39,876 nt of DNA. It comes from a virus. Under the pieces are notes generated by a model. That model saw only the letters and a list, made by a program, of their open reading frames with translations, was not told the origin of the DNA and searched no databases. The position numbers and the translations under genes are program-made. Location: positions 1-39,876 of the IMG/VR virus record IMGVR_UViG_3300037843_000583; one strand, written 5' to 3'. How positions within the stretch are numbered: position 1 is the first letter of the stretch; each line of letters begins with the position of its first letter. Below are positions 24,402-37,126 of the stretch, piece after piece.

Positions 24402-26234
24402 ATGCTCGAAAATATCCCTGCGATACTCAAGCAGTATCCGAATTGGGTCGTCTGGAAGTCTGTCGTCCGCGATGGTAAGGCGACCAAAATTCCCTTCGAT
24501 GCCAAGACTGGCAGCATGGCGAAATCCAATGACGCCATGACCTGGGCAACATTCGAACAAGCCATCAAAACTGGGGACGTGCTGGAAGGCTCCGACTACA
24601 ACGGTGTGGGATTCGAACTGCATGGAACTTCGATAGTTGGGATCGATTTCGACAACGCCATCAATCATAAAGGTGTCATTGATCCATACGTGTTGGAGAT
24701 TCTGAGCTTATTGGGGGACCCATACACAGAAAAATCCCCGAGCGGGACAGGGCTTCATGCTTTTGTAGATTGCGCCGCGTTGCCCGAGGGCGGCAGAAAA
24801 TTATCACAGGCGCACAGCGGAATTGAAATATATCACGGTCAAGAGGGCGGTCGCTATTTCACAATGACTGGGGAAAAGGTGCTCGGCGACGGAATCCCAA
24901 AAATCGCGGACATCACACTGCCGTATCTCCTGATAACCCAGAACAAAGATAAAAAGTTCAAATCCGCATGGCTGGGAGATACATCACTGTTTAACGGCGA
25001 CGACTCCAGTGCGGATTTCTATCTATTGACTCGGCTTGCCGCGCTCACACAAAACAACCCGCTGAAAATGGAATCATTCTTTAGTGTGTCCAAGCCAGGG
25101 CATCGGGAGAAATGGCACAACCGAAAAGATTATCGTGAGCGATCCATCAAAGCGGCTATTGGCACCAATCTTACTGGTAAGCCTGTGTCAGTATCTGCCG
25201 CGATTGAATTTCACACCCCTGCGCGCCCTGATCCAGATGGGGAATATGTGATTGCACCTATGGCTGGTCAAGATGATGGATGGTTCCCTCTTGGCGACAT
25301 CAGTCTGATTGGTGGAGCCAGCGGTACGGGAAAGACAACGTGGATTTTTGAAATGCTGCACAAACAGAAGCAAGGCTACCCCATACACGATCACCGCACT
25401 CATGGATATTTGTTTCAAGTTCTGGCATACGACCGAGGCAGGAATGCGTTCGCCCGCACGATGCGGCGATTGAACCTGCTTCCATCGGATATACCTACGA
25501 CGCCGCTACCGCTTGCTTTCGGCACCGAGGCAGTGCAAAGCGTCATCAATGAAATCGAAAAGATGAATCCAACCCCCAACATCATCTTCATTGAGGGGCT
25601 GGATATGCTTCTCGACGACGCCAACAAAAAATCAGTCGTTTCCCCCTTCATGCGCCAACTACAAGAAACGGCAGCCCACTTCCATATAGCCTTAATTTGT
25701 AGCGTCGGGGCTCCTAAGACCAAGCGCGGGGAAGATTACGCAGCCAAGCGCGACAAACTGTCAGGCAGCGAAGCCTGGGGCCGCAATTGTGAAACCGTCT
25801 GCGTTCTGGAATTCGCGGAGGATGATGACGGCACCGCGCCACAGAGAATTTTGACGATCCTTCCACGAAACGCCCCTGCTGAGAAGTTCACGCTGCAGTT
25901 TGAGGGTGGGCGTTTGGTGCCCGTTCAGGCAACAGAAGACCCGAAACAGGACCCTGGCGGGCGGCCACCTGAATCACTTCAGAAAGCCATCAATTTCCTT
26001 GAGCGCGAGCTTCAAGATGGGCCGCGCCTGGGCAAAGAAATCATCGTTCTTGCACGGGATTTGGAAAACATCAGTCGTGCGACTCTCTATCGGGCCGCCG
26101 AGGTTGCACACGTTCAAAAGGATGTTCGCATAGCGGGAAAATTGTGTTGGAAACTTACCCCTATGAACGAAACCAACGATCCACAAGAGGACGAAGAGGC
26201 GGGGCCGACCAGCACGGAGTTTAAGTATGAGTGA
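24402..26234 (+). CDS. Primase-polymerase / RecA-fold replicative ATPase
   Basis: 610 residues. The N-terminal domain (about 1-170) shows a prim-pol pattern: NWVVWK, PFDAKTG, IVGIDFDNA with D82 and D84 as metal ligands, and SPSGTGLH (112-119). The C-terminal half is a RepA/KaiC-type ATPase: GGASGTGKTT (304-313, Walker A), IIFIEGLDML (about 391-400, Walker B) and a SGSEAWGRNCE sensor-like segment. The last about 80 residues resemble a helix-turn-helix. Fused prim-pol/helicase proteins initiate replication in many phages and plasmids. It lies 11 bases after the nuclease gene, and the candidate origin lies downstream beyond the inserted IS element. Confidence 0.85.
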   Translation: MLENIPAILKQYPNWVVWKSVVRDGKATKIPFDAKTGSMAKSNDAMTWATFEQAIKTGDVLEGSDYNGVGFELHGTSIVGIDFDNAINHKGVIDPYVLEILSLLGDPYTEKSPSGTGLHAFVDCAALPEGGRKLSQAHSGIEIYHGQEGGRYFTMTGEKVLGDGIPKIADITLPYLLITQNKDKKFKSAWLGDTSLFNGDDSSADFYLLTRLAALTQNNPLKMESFFSVSKPGHREKWHNRKDYRERSIKAAIGTNLTGKPVSVSAAIEFHTPARPDPDGEYVIAPMAGQDDGWFPLGDISLIGGASGTGKTTWIFEMLHKQKQGYPIHDHRTHGYLFQVLAYDRGRNAFARTMRRLNLLPSDIPTTPLPLAFGTEAVQSVINEIEKMNPTPNIIFIEGLDMLLDDANKKSVVSPFMRQLQETAAHFHIALICSVGAPKTKRGEDYAAKRDKLSGSEAWGRNCETVCVLEFAEDDDGTAPQRILTILPRNAPAEKFTLQFEGGRLVPVQATEDPKQDPGGRPPESLQKAINFLERELQDGPRLGKEIIVLARDLENISRATLYRAAEVAHVQKDVRIAGKLCWKLTPMNETNDPQEDEEAGPTSTEFKYE

Positions 26235-26332: not shown

Positions 26333-26731
26333 ATGCTCGAAGGATACAAGTCAAACAACAACGTCGTGTACTCCAGCAAATATCACGTCGTCTGGTGCCC
26401 GAAGTATCGACGCGAGGTGCTGGATGGTCCGATAGCGAGACGATGCGAACAGGTCCTGCGACAGACATGCAAGAAGTATCGAGCCGAAATCATCGCCTTA
26501 GAGATTATGCCCGACCACGTACATCTGCTGGTCGAAGTGGACCCACAATTTGGGATACATCGACTTGTCAAAAATCTCAAAGGTGTGTCGTCGCATACAC
26601 TGCGCAAAGAATTTGCCAGTTTGGTTTCACGTCTGCCGACGCTCTGGACAAATTCGTATTTCGTTTCGACAGTCGGTGGTGCTCCGCTTTCAGTGATTAA
26701 ACAGTACGTTGAAAATCAGAAGAACGTCTGA
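26333..26731 (+). CDS. tnpA: IS200/IS605 Y1 transposase TnpA
   Basis: 132 residues, normal size. The HUH motif is MPDHVHLLV (His62, His64), and the catalytic tyrosine is Tyr125 in SVIKQYVENQ. The N-terminal YHVVWCPKYRR block is also family-typical. It cuts and rejoins single-stranded DNA at the hairpin ends, often at replication forks. It overlaps tnpB by one base. All catalytic residues are present, so it should be active. Confidence 0.95.
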   Translation: MLEGYKSNNNVVYSSKYHVVWCPKYRREVLDGPIARRCEQVLRQTCKKYRAEIIALEIMPDHVHLLVEVDPQFGIHRLVKNLKGVSSHTLRKEFASLVSRLPTLWTNSYFVSTVGGAPLSVIKQYVENQKNV

Positions 26732-27777
26732 TGATTCAAGCGCAACTCAAACTTCGGCTCAACACCAAACAGGATGCCATTCTGACGGGCTGGCTGTGGA
26801 ACCTCACGGGTGTGTGGAACTGGGCGGTCAAGAAAATAGAATTGGATGCGAAGGATAAGATTTTCTACTCCCCGAAAGAATTTCACAATCTGCTGGCAGG
26901 GCACAGCGAAAAGATGGAGATTCCCAGCCACACCCTGCAGGGCATGCTATCGCAGGCGCATCTAGCTTGGAGCCGATGCTTCAAGAAATTAGCAAAGAAG
27001 CCTCACCTCAAAGGACTACGCAACAAACTCAATAGCATTCCGTTCCCTGATCCATTACGTGCGCCTGTCGGCAACCATATTGCAGTGCCTGGGTTGGGCT
27101 CTGTTCGATTCCACCGTCAGGATATTCCCGAGGGCAAAATCAAGTGTGGGCGCATTGTCAAACGTGCGTCGGGTTGGTATCTCTGCCTGTTCATTGCTGC
27201 CGACCGAGAACCGATTGCGCACACAGCGCATGGACAGATCGGAATCGACCCTGGATTCAAGAGCCTGCTCACGACATCCGAGGGCGAGATTATAGAGCAT
27301 CCTCGGGAACTGGAAGCGGGCGCACAAAGATTGGCGCAAGCGCAACGCGGCAACGACCGAACCCTTGCCGCACGTTTGCAAGAACGCATGGGCAATCGGC
27401 GCAAAGACCGAAACCACAAACTATCTCGGCAACTTGTCGCGGAAAACGATTTGATTGCGTTCTCCGCAGACAACCATAAAGGTGTTGCCAACAAATTTGG
27501 GAAGAGCGTTTCCAGTTCTTCACATTATCAACTTCGACGGATGCTTTCGTACAAAAGCCGTGCAGGCGGTACGGAATATGTCGAAGTTGATTCTAAGTTT
27601 TCCACCAAAACCTGTTCCAACTGCGGGAGCCTCTCTGGTCCTACAGGATGGGCAGGGTTGTCGATAAGGCAGTGGCGATGCACAGAGTGTGGAACTCTTC
27701 ACGACCGCGATGTCAATGCGGCTCGTAACACGCTACAGGCTGCCCTCGGAACGAGGGTCGAGGTGTGCTGTGCGTAA
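26731..27777 (+). CDS. tnpB: TnpB, RuvC-II glutamate apparently missing
   Basis: 348 residues. RuvC-I is IGIDPGFKSL with Asp173. The zinc finger is intact (C295, C298, C317, C320), and RuvC-III is HDRDVNAARN with Asp325/Asp327. At RuvC-II, where active TnpB has a pattern like VVEDLNVKG, this protein reads IAFSADNHKG, placing Ser245 where the catalytic Glu is expected. TnpB is normally an RNA-guided nuclease that promotes transposon retention. This copy may be nuclease-dead or use a relocated acid. It is otherwise full-length for a short TnpB and translationally coupled to tnpA. The guide RNA would be expected to end in the right-end region. Confidence 0.93.
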   Translation: MIQAQLKLRLNTKQDAILTGWLWNLTGVWNWAVKKIELDAKDKIFYSPKEFHNLLAGHSEKMEIPSHTLQGMLSQAHLAWSRCFKKLAKKPHLKGLRNKLNSIPFPDPLRAPVGNHIAVPGLGSVRFHRQDIPEGKIKCGRIVKRASGWYLCLFIAADREPIAHTAHGQIGIDPGFKSLLTTSEGEIIEHPRELEAGAQRLAQAQRGNDRTLAARLQERMGNRRKDRNHKLSRQLVAENDLIAFSADNHKGVANKFGKSVSSSSHYQLRRMLSYKSRAGGTEYVEVDSKFSTKTCSNCGSLSGPTGWAGLSIRQWRCTECGTLHDRDVNAARNTLQAALGTRVEVCCA

Positions 27778-27855: not shown

Positions 27856-28077
27856 AGTTTTGAGACGTGAGATTTTACCTCTATATATAATAGAATCAAT
27901 AATATATTCGTCTCAAAACCCTTCTGAGACAGTTCTGAGACAGAGGGGGGTTTTGAGACAAGATTACTCTTTGGTCACAAAGTTGTCTCACGTCTCAGAA
28001 CTGTCTCAAAACCCTTCTGAGACAACCAACCCTCTGATATCAATAGCTTTACATACGAAATCTCACGTCTCAAAACT
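27856..28077 (+). other. Candidate replication origin: GTCTCA iterons with AT-rich core
   Basis: The region is bounded by a perfect 20-bp inverted repeat, AGTTTTGAGACGTGAGATTT (27856-27875) and its complement (28058-28077). Ten GTCTCA/TGAGAC copies occur at 27861, 27910, 27925, 27936, 27954, 27985, 27992, 28003, 28018 and 28067. A 21-base unit GTCTCAAAAC...TGAGAC is directly repeated at 27910-27930 and 28003-28023, and a 17-base unit is inverted between 27925-27941 and 27992-28008. Bases 27872-27909 are almost entirely A/T, fitting a DNA unwinding element. It lies downstream of the prim-pol gene. An operator cluster controlling the downstream genes is the main alternative. Confidence 0.6.
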
Positions 28078-28101
28078 AAATGCATGTTGCGGGAGGTTCT
28101 G

Positions 28102-28596
28102 ATGTCTCTTCAGAAGTCATTACCACGGATCGCGGCTCGGGTTCTCCACAATACCCATGTTGGGTTATCGCGGATGAAAGATAAATTTGAATTGATCGAA
28201 GAGGCTTACGGGCGCGCTGCCGTCGAAGCCGATTTTGAGAAATGGTGCCGCGAGGTCCAGGATAAGAACCCGCGATACCCCTTGACCGAATATGTGAAAG
28301 TAGTGGATTCTCGGCTTGGTCCCGAGTTTGCCGAGAAGCGCGCCGATGTGGATGATCCCCGAGTCTCTCAAATTACGGCGACCGCGTACGAAATGACAGG
28401 CGTGCTTCCTTCCGCGCGCTCCATCGCAAAACTACTTCTTGCTGCGCCGCCAGAAGAAATCATCGCGGCACTCAAAGAATACGTGACCACACTGGACGAG
28501 AATGAATACAAAACGGGGATGCGCGCGTTTTTTACAGAAAATGGTGGCATCGCGGTGATTATCGCCCGCAAAGGTAGAACCGACAATGCCCGTTAA
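28102..28596 (+). CDS. Conserved-looking protein of unknown function next to the putative origin
   Basis: 164 residues from ATG 28102, chosen over an ATG 18 bases upstream because GGGAGG (28091-28096) is optimally spaced. The protein looks helical, basic at the N-terminus and acidic in the middle. The segment ATAYEMTGVLPSARSIAKLLLAAPPEEIIAALKEYV could be a helix-turn-helix-like or helical-bundle domain. There is no signal peptide or membrane segment. As the first gene after the iteron region it may be controlled by it. Function unknown. Confidence 0.7.
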   Translation: MSLQKSLPRIAARVLHNTHVGLSRMKDKFELIEEAYGRAAVEADFEKWCREVQDKNPRYPLTEYVKVVDSRLGPEFAEKRADVDDPRVSQITATAYEMTGVLPSARSIAKLLLAAPPEEIIAALKEYVTTLDENEYKTGMRAFFTENGGIAVIIARKGRTDNAR

Positions 28597-28840
28597 AGTT
28601 GTGAAGATCAACCAAAAGCAAATCAATTTTACGCTCTATATTGGGCGTAAATGGGCGGGGTTCCCTGAATCTATTTTCTGTAATCCGTTTCATGTCGGAA
28701 AAGACGGCACACGCGAAGAAGTTTTGGAAAAATTTGCGGCCTATTGGTGCGCCCCCGAACAAAAGTCTTTGCGTGATATGGCACTTTATCCACGGCGTCG
28801 TAAAACCCCGCACTTCAGGCGGGGGAGGATGTCAAGGTGA
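28586..28840 (+). pseudogene. DUF4326-like gene truncated at its 3' end by an IS200/IS605 end
   Basis: 84 residues. KVVKINQKQINFTLYIGRKW and CNPFHVGKDGTREEVLEKFAAY match the DUF4326 family, whose full proteins continue with a CWCAP...CHxDVL segment. Here, after residues about 60-69 (KSLRDMALYP), the frame enters the hairpin of a solo IS200/IS605 right end (28806-28824) and terminates as RRRKTPHFRRGRMSR. The C-terminal conserved Cys/His part is missing and not found downstream. The gene overlaps its upstream neighbour by 11 bases. The shortened product may still be made, because it ends in an ATGA junction with the next gene. Confidence 0.7.
28801..28836 (+). mobile_element. Solo IS200/IS605-type right end (fossil)
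   Basis: CCCCGC and GCGGGG (28806-28811 and 28819-28824) pair around a TTCA loop with one bulged A and a closing C-G, followed by GGAGGATGTCAA, which closely resembles right ends of this family. No left end, transposase or TnpB accompanies it. It is either a remnant after deletion or the end of a minimal non-autonomous element. Confidence 0.7.
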
Positions 28841-34347: not shown

Positions 34348-34933
34348 CTTCTGGTCTCCTGAGTACTTCGCGCAAAAAATGCACGAGCGTGTCTCCCAGA
34401 TGAAGCCGCAAGACTTTGAACCCTGGGACGAAGCGCGCGAGCGGTACGCCAAAACAAAGATCGAACCGATTCTGCAGAAGTATCGCCAGTCAGACCATGA
34501 TTGGTTTCGTGACTGGAGCCGCCGACGTGGTGAGATGTTGCACTCCAGTGATGTGATTTTTCGACTGCAGAAGTTGAACCCACATATTTTTGTCCAGCAA
34601 CAAATCAACTTTCCCGACGACTGGGGGCTGTATTCTTCGGCACTCGGGCGCATCCAGTTTCTGACTGGGCTGCCGAAGGGCTGGCTGACAGAGTTTTCTT
34701 ACGCGCTCGTGGACGACCGCGACCTGCCGACCGAAGAGCGGCGCGGGTGGCGGACAGTATTGGTCTATTGTTTGATGAAAGGCGCAATTACCTGGGATCA
34801 GGTCCTGGCGGAATTCGGCGAACCCAACGACGCTTGGAATGAACAGCGTTGGTGCGAAGTGACGGCGGATTTTCGCTTCGGCGGCGACGGGATCGTGGAT
34901 CGCAATATCGCGAACGCTGTCGCAACTGATTAA
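34337..34933 (+). CDS. Protein of unknown function, last gene before the right structural block
   Basis: 198 residues, rich in Trp and Arg (15 Arg or more), acidic/basic mixed and mainly helical. Sections DWSRRRGEMLHSSDVIFRLQKLNPHIFVQQQ and RGWRTVLVYCLMKGAITWDQVLAEFG look like folded helical modules. No Cys cluster, no membrane segment. Phage virion and packaging accessory proteins can have this composition, but no family is recognised. Ends just before a promoter motif. Confidence 0.65.
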   Translation: MAPDFWSPEYFAQKMHERVSQMKPQDFEPWDEARERYAKTKIEPILQKYRQSDHDWFRDWSRRRGEMLHSSDVIFRLQKLNPHIFVQQQINFPDDWGLYSSALGRIQFLTGLPKGWLTEFSYALVDDRDLPTEERRGWRTVLVYCLMKGAITWDQVLAEFGEPNDAWNEQRWCEVTADFRFGGDGIVDRNIANAVATD

Positions 34934-34945
34934 AACTTATTACAA

Positions 34946-34975
34946 GTTTTTGACTTTCCTTCCCATTAGTGTAGA
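34946..34975 (+). promoter_or_regulatory. Phage-specific promoter motif, copy 5
   Basis: GACTTT, CCTTCCC, ATT, AGTGTAGA, and with its flank from 34936 it matches the copy at 1661-1700 at all but two or three of 40 positions. It is 35 bases upstream of the gene at 35010. Confidence 0.75.
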
Positions 34976-36634: not shown

Positions 36635-36648
36635 AAAGTTCCTGGCAC

Positions 36649-36682
36649 GGGAGCCACAGTCTCAACCTTCGCTGTGACTCCC
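36649..36682 (+). terminator. Hairpin without T-run after the gene at 35765
   Basis: GGGAG-CACAG (36649-36659, one unpaired base) pairs with CTGTG-CTCCC (36672-36682, one unpaired base). No U-tract follows, so it may be only a 3'-end stabiliser or an incomplete terminator. Confidence 0.4.
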
Positions 36683-36730
36683 CTCGCCTCAAGTTTGTAG
36701 TTGCAGTAAAATTCTAATTGGAGAGAAAAA

Positions 36731-37126
36731 ATGAGCGAAACACCAGCAACACCCGTAGCACCCGTAGCACCCGTAGCACCCGTAGCACCCGTAGCACCCG
36801 TAGCACCCGTAGCACCCGTAGCACCCGTAGCACCCGTAGCACCCGTAGCACCCGTAGCACCCGTGGCGACGAATGTCGTCCCGAACCCAGCACCAAAGCC
36901 CACGGCCATTCAATTGATCGAACAGGAACTGGCTGCGTTTTTCAAGCAGCGCGAACAGGCGATTGCGAACGTCCATGCAATCGATGGCGCGATCCAGGGA
37001 GCCCAGCGGTTGCTTTCCGTGTTCAAGGCGGAAGCGGCCAAGGCCGAGACTCTGGTTGAAAAGGCTGTTGAGACGGTCGAAGCCAAAGCTGGCCAAGTCG
37101 TCGAGTTTGTTAAAAAGGAACTGTAG
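36731..37126 (+). CDS. PVA-repeat protein with C-terminal helical domain
   Basis: 131 residues. Residues 8-46 are thirteen Pro-Val-Ala triplets, twelve of them identical at DNA level. Residues about 60-131 are helical ([49 protein letters not shown]). This is a flexible stalk plus coiled-coil domain. TTGGAG precedes the ATG. It lies between structural genes and is probably a virion component. The repeat number probably varies between isolates. Confidence 0.75.
36752..36868 (+). repeat. Nine-base minisatellite encoding PVA
   Basis: Unit CCCGTAGCA is repeated perfectly twelve times (36752-36859), followed by a variant CCCGTGGCG. All units are in frame, so length changes by slippage would vary protein length only. 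Confidence 0.95.

Follow-up and report, generated by a model that had tools for sequence, protein, structure and literature searches.

What is the role of a 222-base, gene-free region in which ten copies of a single hexamer, in both orientations, flank and adjoin an A/T-rich core? The region lies in a stretch of 39,876 nucleotides (positions 1 to 39,876 of IMG/VR virus record IMGVR_UViG_3300037843_000583, hereafter called the window), which is part of a tailed-phage genome. A first-pass annotation made from the letters of the window had proposed that the region is an origin of replication, with an operator array as the alternative. The origin proposal is supported by our analysis: the layout recurs in relatives that lack the insertion sequence (IS) present in the window, an exact core sequence is found in four phages, and minima of GC skew fall near the region in most of the genomes. 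We consider it very probable that this candidate site is where the bacteriophage begins to copy its DNA.

Genomic setting

Upstream of the region is a replication module that encodes a UvsX-like recombinase, a family A polymerase, an Erf-like annealing protein, SSB, a UvrD helicase, a PD-(D/E)XK nuclease and a 610-aa primase-ATPase (Table 1). Pfam searches with the primase-ATPase of the window return only AAA_25 and a weak match to the NrS-1 helix-bundle domain (HBD, PF22763), which scores 21.4 bits in the window, below the cut-off of 27.9, and 29.8 bits in the relative L023. An IS200/IS605 element sits between the primase-ATPase gene and the repeat array. This element is absent from the relatives, in which the candidate initiator gene is directly upstream of the gap; the distance of 1.6 kb in the window is therefore explained by the intervening IS. 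The product of the gene at 28102, on the other side of the array, has no family match, and a fold search with it gave no convincing match.

DNA and protein queries (the ATPase region of the window and the 28102 product) produced no match in an annotated phage collection, and thus no isolate with a known host. No relative was found among GTDB genome contigs searched with the 28102 family and the ATPase, and among the plasmids searched the primase part alone matches, distantly. Rfam searches gave only below-threshold matches at chance level.

Table 1. Coordinates of the candidate origin and its neighbouring features in the window
Feature	Coordinates	Strand	Remark
AEP-type primase, RecA-fold ATPase, winged helix protein; candidate initiator	24402..26234	+	
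C-terminal winged-helix domain, candidate iteron reader	25956..26159	+	predicted model and PDB winged-helix matches
IS200/IS605-type insertion genes (tnpA 26333-26731, tnpB 26731-27777)	26333..27777	+	not part of the origin
Iteron and A/T region, candidate replication origin, 222 bp	27856..28077	.	same layout in the same place in relatives
Left arm of perfect 20-bp edge inverted repeat	27856..27875	+	
Iteron TGAGAC, copy 1	27861..27866	+	within GTTTTGAGACGTGA
A/T-rich core, candidate unwinding element	27876..27908	.	85% A/T
16-base core ATATATAATAGAATCA	27883..27898	+	exact in four phages
Iteron copy 2	27910..27915	-	GTTTTGAGACGAAT on the minus strand
Iteron copy 3	27925..27930	+	CTTCTGAGACAGTT
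Iteron copy 4	27936..27941	+	GTTCTGAGACAGAG
Iteron copy 5	27954..27959	+	GTTTTGAGACAAGA
Iteron copy 6	27985..27990	-	GACGTGAGACAACT, hexamer only
Iteron copy 7	27992..27997	-	GTTCTGAGACGTGA
Iteron copy 8	28003..28008	-	GTTTTGAGACAGTT
Iteron copy 9	28018..28023	+	CTTCTGAGACAACC
Right arm of perfect 20-bp edge inverted repeat	28058..28077	-	
Iteron copy 10	28067..28072	-	GTTTTGAGACGTGA
Conserved downstream protein, 164 aa, predicted all-helical	28102..28596	+	

Anatomy of the repeat array

The ten copies of GTCTCA/TGAGAC that had been reported are all present; they span 27861-28072, and each strand carries five of them. Both inverted repeats of the earlier description, a 17-base pair (27925-27941 and 27992-28008) and the 20-bp repeat at the edges, are perfect, and L005 has a comparable 19-bp inverted pair with arms 181 bp apart. 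Two measurements had to be corrected. The direct repeat given as 21 bases is 22 bases long (27910-27931 is identical to 28003-28024), and the 38-base stretch described as almost pure A/T is 84% A/T. The region is free of genes, as had been stated, provided that the downstream gene begins at 28102, the start used by all relatives; an alternative ATG ORF opens ahead of it, at 28084.

In dinucleotide shuffles of the 269-base gap, the maximum count for any hexamer was five, and none of 1000 shuffles reached ten. The phage from which the window derives is also represented by a 74.9-kb record (G001) that holds nearly the entire window sequence. When that record was scanned in 1867 segments of 220 bp, the array was unmatched elsewhere in its number of copies, on both strands, of a single 7-mer. 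The fuller unit GTTYTGAGAC occurs seven times in the record, always inside the array. Over the whole window, GTCTCA is about as frequent as expected by chance (20 copies versus 18), with significance confined to the clustering.

The anatomical elements of an iteron origin are present: multiple short repeats of one sequence, an A/T-rich region next to them (84-87% A/T across 30-38 bases) and a nearby gene for a candidate DNA-binding initiator.

Relatives keep the layout and carry private repeats

Relatives were taken from IMG/VR scans as members that pair a primase-ATPase gene with a gene for the 164-aa protein, and the gap between the two genes was read in ten of them. Six strong arrays, each above chance in comparison with shuffles, have a common layout: those of the window, L014, L005, L006, L007 and L017. 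The iteron is CTTYTG/GTTYTG + AGAC in the window, CTTCTG + GACTG in L014, CTTYTG + CCAAA in L005, CWTYTG + GACA in L006, CTTYTG + GAAA in L007, and ATCTCGGG in L017, the last being unrelated to the other five. Comparison of the six thus indicates that five repeats have a constant half, and that the other half varies. Most of the copies found anywhere in a record fall within its array (7/7 for the window phage, and 7/7, 6/7, 6/7, 3/3 and 5/9 for the others). Conservation in relatives lacking the IS had been named as a check on the origin proposal; the layout and the core are indeed kept, but the sequence of the repeat differs. On the basis of sequence comparison, this pattern suggests that the initiator protein and its landing site may change together.

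Other members are less clear. Candidate repeats of TGAGC in L043 and L054 and of GTCGGG in L047 were read from the sequence. In shuffles, the L027 array is borderline, and L015, L023 and L025 have arrays that are weak or fall short of significance. In L098, a distant new member whose ATPase is 40% identical, strong iterons and the 16-base core are both lacking; this was the one new member on which the prediction was tried, and it failed. Two isolates, OkiRoe and Squash, carry distant relatives of the other ATPase type; in both, there is no gap after the primase gene, because its end is overlapped by the following gene.

Two other arrangements were observed at this locus. In L029, L057 and L058 the primase-ATPase gene is absent, and the 164-aa gene is preceded by a small protein (~127 aa) together with tandem repeats rich in T and G, for example TTTGGTATTGG (L029 4523-5000, L057 3366-4000, L058 3510-4000); these phages possibly use a different initiator and origin. 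Short HNH-endonuclease-like ORFs (a cysteine pair, then EFDHLP) lie inside the origin gap of L023 (4520-4960) and L027 (4480-4860), and the gap seems to collect insertions.

GC skew

Cumulative GC skew was another check proposed earlier. In its plain form the skew is monotone and uninformative. We used a bias-corrected skew, based on fourfold-degenerate sites of plus-strand genes, in eight genomes, and measured distances from the start of the downstream gene. The minimum is at +262 bp in G002, -512 bp in G003, -407 bp in G009 and +121 bp in G005. Thus, it is less than 0.6 kb from the gap in four of the eight genomes, and at most 3 kb away in six (G007 and G004 being the additional two); in G006, it is 11 kb off. 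An origin near the array gains support from most of the genomes. In G001, the phage of the window itself, the fourfold sites show no skew switch at the array, and their minimum is far away.

Skew is clearly higher to the right in seven of the eight genomes. For the best four, shuffling of the gene order gave location values of 0.0015-0.014. Because the genomes are syntenic, these results are not independent; several genomes are also fragments, and we take the skew as support and not as proof. The G009 record (L073-L077, 99668 bases) has a 97-base direct terminal repeat and is probably a complete genome.

Conserved elements of the A/T-rich core

Four records (the window, L005, L006 and L007) each contain a single exact copy of ATATATAATAGAATCA, and in all four this copy lies in the gap. 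Its orientation in the window is opposite to that in the other three. The four phages that carry it have ATPases that are 87-91% identical, although the primase of L007 is DnaG-type and not AEP-type. A second element, AGAGRGAAAGAGTTA, is common to L017, L023 and L025. These three phages have the other ATPase type, and their primases are likewise of mixed kinds. Both motifs were chosen after the sequences had been viewed; therefore, the correspondence between core and ATPase is a pattern to test.

With regard to the opposite orientations, inverted iterons flank the window core (27883-27898) and would permit a flip by recombination. A DnaG-type zinc-finger/Toprim primase replaces the AEP-type domain in L007 (6942-9092), L017 (1454-3703), L027 (1714-3942) and L047 (1912-4194), an assignment that was family-tested for L007 and L017 and made from alignment for L027 and L047. 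In these four phages the swap is within one protein, and the ATPase, the winged helix and the position of the origin are retained.

The core also bears on the possibility that the region is an operator array, in which a phage regulator would bind the repeats and control the operon starting at 28102, with the A/T core as promoter. The array is directly upstream of a conserved gene, the core has four promoter-like sites compared with a mean of 0.6 in shuffles, and the 16-mer contains TATAAT. However, the orientation of the 16-mer in the window is the reverse of that in L005, L006 and L007, which would be surprising if it served the same downstream gene as a promoter. Moreover, an HTH_3 repressor scores above the cut-off in none of the 11 records, and an operator would not be expected to coincide with a skew minimum. 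The operator alternative is weakened by the flipped core and by the failure to detect an HTH_3 repressor, and we regard it as unlikely. Nevertheless, iteron origins are often self-regulating, so the region may be both origin and operator.

A candidate iteron reader

The upstream primase-ATPase and the 28102 product had both been put forward as binding partners of the array, and the evidence favors the former. The C terminus of the primase-ATPase is predicted to form a winged helix, with three helices followed by a two-strand wing; pLDDT is about 81-90 across this domain. Structural matches of this domain in the PDB are mostly winged helices; the best Z is about 8, and therefore the matches indicate no more than the class of fold. 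Among the window, L005, L006 and L007, whose iterons differ, identity is 41-53% in the winged helix, compared with 87-91% in the adjoining ATPase. The downstream proteins of L006 and L017 are 77% identical, whereas their ATPases are 19% and their winged helices 37% identical, and their iterons are unrelated. Because of this divergence pattern and the comparison of L006 with L017, the upstream winged helix is a better candidate reader than is the 28102 protein. When similarity of recognition helices was compared with similarity of iterons, no residue-level link was demonstrable with ten sequences. We conclude that the region is likely to be a replication origin whose iterons are bound by the upstream primase-ATPase through its predicted C-terminal winged helix.

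The 28102 protein, or another adaptor, could also bind the array as a partition (centromere-like) site of a plasmid-like prophage. Iteron arrays upstream of a small gene match the anatomy of centromere sites, and integrase genes in 6 of 11 records suggest that some of the phages are temperate. However, closely similar 28102 proteins of relatives accompany unrelated repeats, and a search for partition ATPases of the ParA type (PF01656) found none in 11 records. We consider a partition site very improbable.

Comparison with known origins

By analogy, the candidate origin appears to work like those of SaPI, P4 and RSF1010, and it belongs to none of those families. It differs from the SaPI, P4, pRN1 and RSF1010 systems in its presumed motor, an AAA_25 RecA-fold ATPase to which a primase and a winged helix are fused; for this reason, it cannot be assigned to any of them. 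As summarized in a passage of PMC7581432 that cites Ubeda et al. 2007, the C-terminal domain of SaPI Rep binds iterons directly downstream of its own gene. Iteron binding by the C-terminal domain has been shown for SCCmec Cch2, whose iterons are likewise directly downstream of its own gene (PMC7581432). The relatives of the window resemble SaPI in that the iterons directly follow the helicase gene, an arrangement that the IS interrupts in the window. However, SaPI Reps are DUF927 or Primase_Cterm/D5 helicases, whereas the window protein is an AAA_25-type RecA-fold ATPase with a fused primase.

P4 alpha is described in PMC4234260 as a single protein that unites primase and helicase with a winged helix for binding the repeats of the origin. 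The window protein also has a winged helix, as predicted, but P4 alpha combines a Toprim primase with an SF3 helicase, whereas the window protein combines an AEP-type primase with an AAA_25 ATPase. The four relatives L007, L017, L027 and L047 carry a primase of the DnaG/Toprim type. A section of the same article describes RepA, RepB' and RepC of RSF1010 as a helicase, a primase and an iteron binder that act at an iteron origin (PMC4234260). These are three separate proteins, whereas in the window the three activities appear to be fused in one polypeptide.

At RK2 oriV, TrfA binds iterons in duplex DNA and, in single-stranded form, a specific A/T-rich element (PMC4081077). RK2 has four 13-mers, whereas the window has one 16-base core. 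TrfA is not known to be a helicase or a primase.

The pRN1 ORF904 and NrS-1 PrimPol proteins resemble the window protein in having an AEP primase and a helicase module, and pRN1 ORF904 also has a C-terminal winged helix and an origin downstream of its gene. However, the helicases of both are SF3, whereas the window has an AAA_25 ATPase. NrS-1 priming depends on TTTGGTTA or GTGA/GTGG, and not on iterons (PMC8718748). The pRN1 origin, a stem-loop directly downstream of the gene for the AEP-helicase-winged-helix protein (PMC4234260), raises the alternative that the inverted iterons of the window form a cruciform and that the initiator recognizes its shape. As single-stranded DNA, the region does fold far better than shuffles (z = -7.6), an automatic result of iterons that stand in both orientations. 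However, the pRN1 origin has no iterons, whereas the window array does, and what is conserved within each of the present phages is the sequence of the repeat. Thus, we think an origin of the stem-loop kind highly unlikely.

A MITE-like, non-autonomous mobile element bounded by the 20-bp inverted repeat is scarcely credible, even though the region is 222 bp, non-coding and has perfect terminal inverted repeats, as a second copy was not found in the record, no target duplication was seen when the edges were read, and the same gap in relatives holds the same layout with other sequences, so that the region is not a recent insertion.

Proposed mechanism and implications

If the region is an iteron origin, copies of the primase-ATPase would bind the ten TGAGAC iterons through the C-terminal winged helix, and the A/T-rich core would melt upon binding around it. 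The ATPase ring would then load on the opened core, where the 16-base sequence may be recognized in single-stranded form, and the fused primase would make the initial primers used by the phage-encoded family A polymerase. Such a mechanism would be consistent with a layout kept in each phage, a core kept in close relatives, and a private iteron that adjoins a divergent winged helix.

More tentatively, recognition of the origin might be modular and private to each phage. The fast-diverging winged helix and the iteron would together form an address cassette, the core would follow the ATPase type (ATATATAATAGAATCA in one type and AGAGRGAAAGAGTTA in three phages of the other), and AEP and DnaG primases could be swapped with the plan of the origin unchanged. 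If this possibility holds, each phage fires its own origin only, perhaps under pressure from satellites or co-infecting relatives.

If the origin interpretation is right, these phages form a natural series with one replication plan and differing addresses that are read by the initiator. The series would allow tests of how initiator and origin change together, of which winged-helix residues set the iteron, and of whether the ATPase, rather than the iteron binder, reads the core. It would also provide origins and candidate initiators for a phage group of which the collections searched contain no isolate. In addition, it would offer a counterpart of the RSF1010 system in which one fused protein takes the place of three.

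Other features of the window

At 28586-28840, a DUF4326 gene is truncated to 84 aa, compared with 107-113 aa in relatives. It ends in a short G+C-rich hairpin that resembles IS200/IS605 ends and is perhaps the scar of a second insertion. Repeats of CACCCG/AGCACC are dense at 36641-36800, with up to 13 per 222 bases. Finally, a 42-base stretch at 1657-1698 is repeated at ~34931-34972 with 95% identity, more than 33 kb away, and a related 31-base piece is found at 2877-2907.
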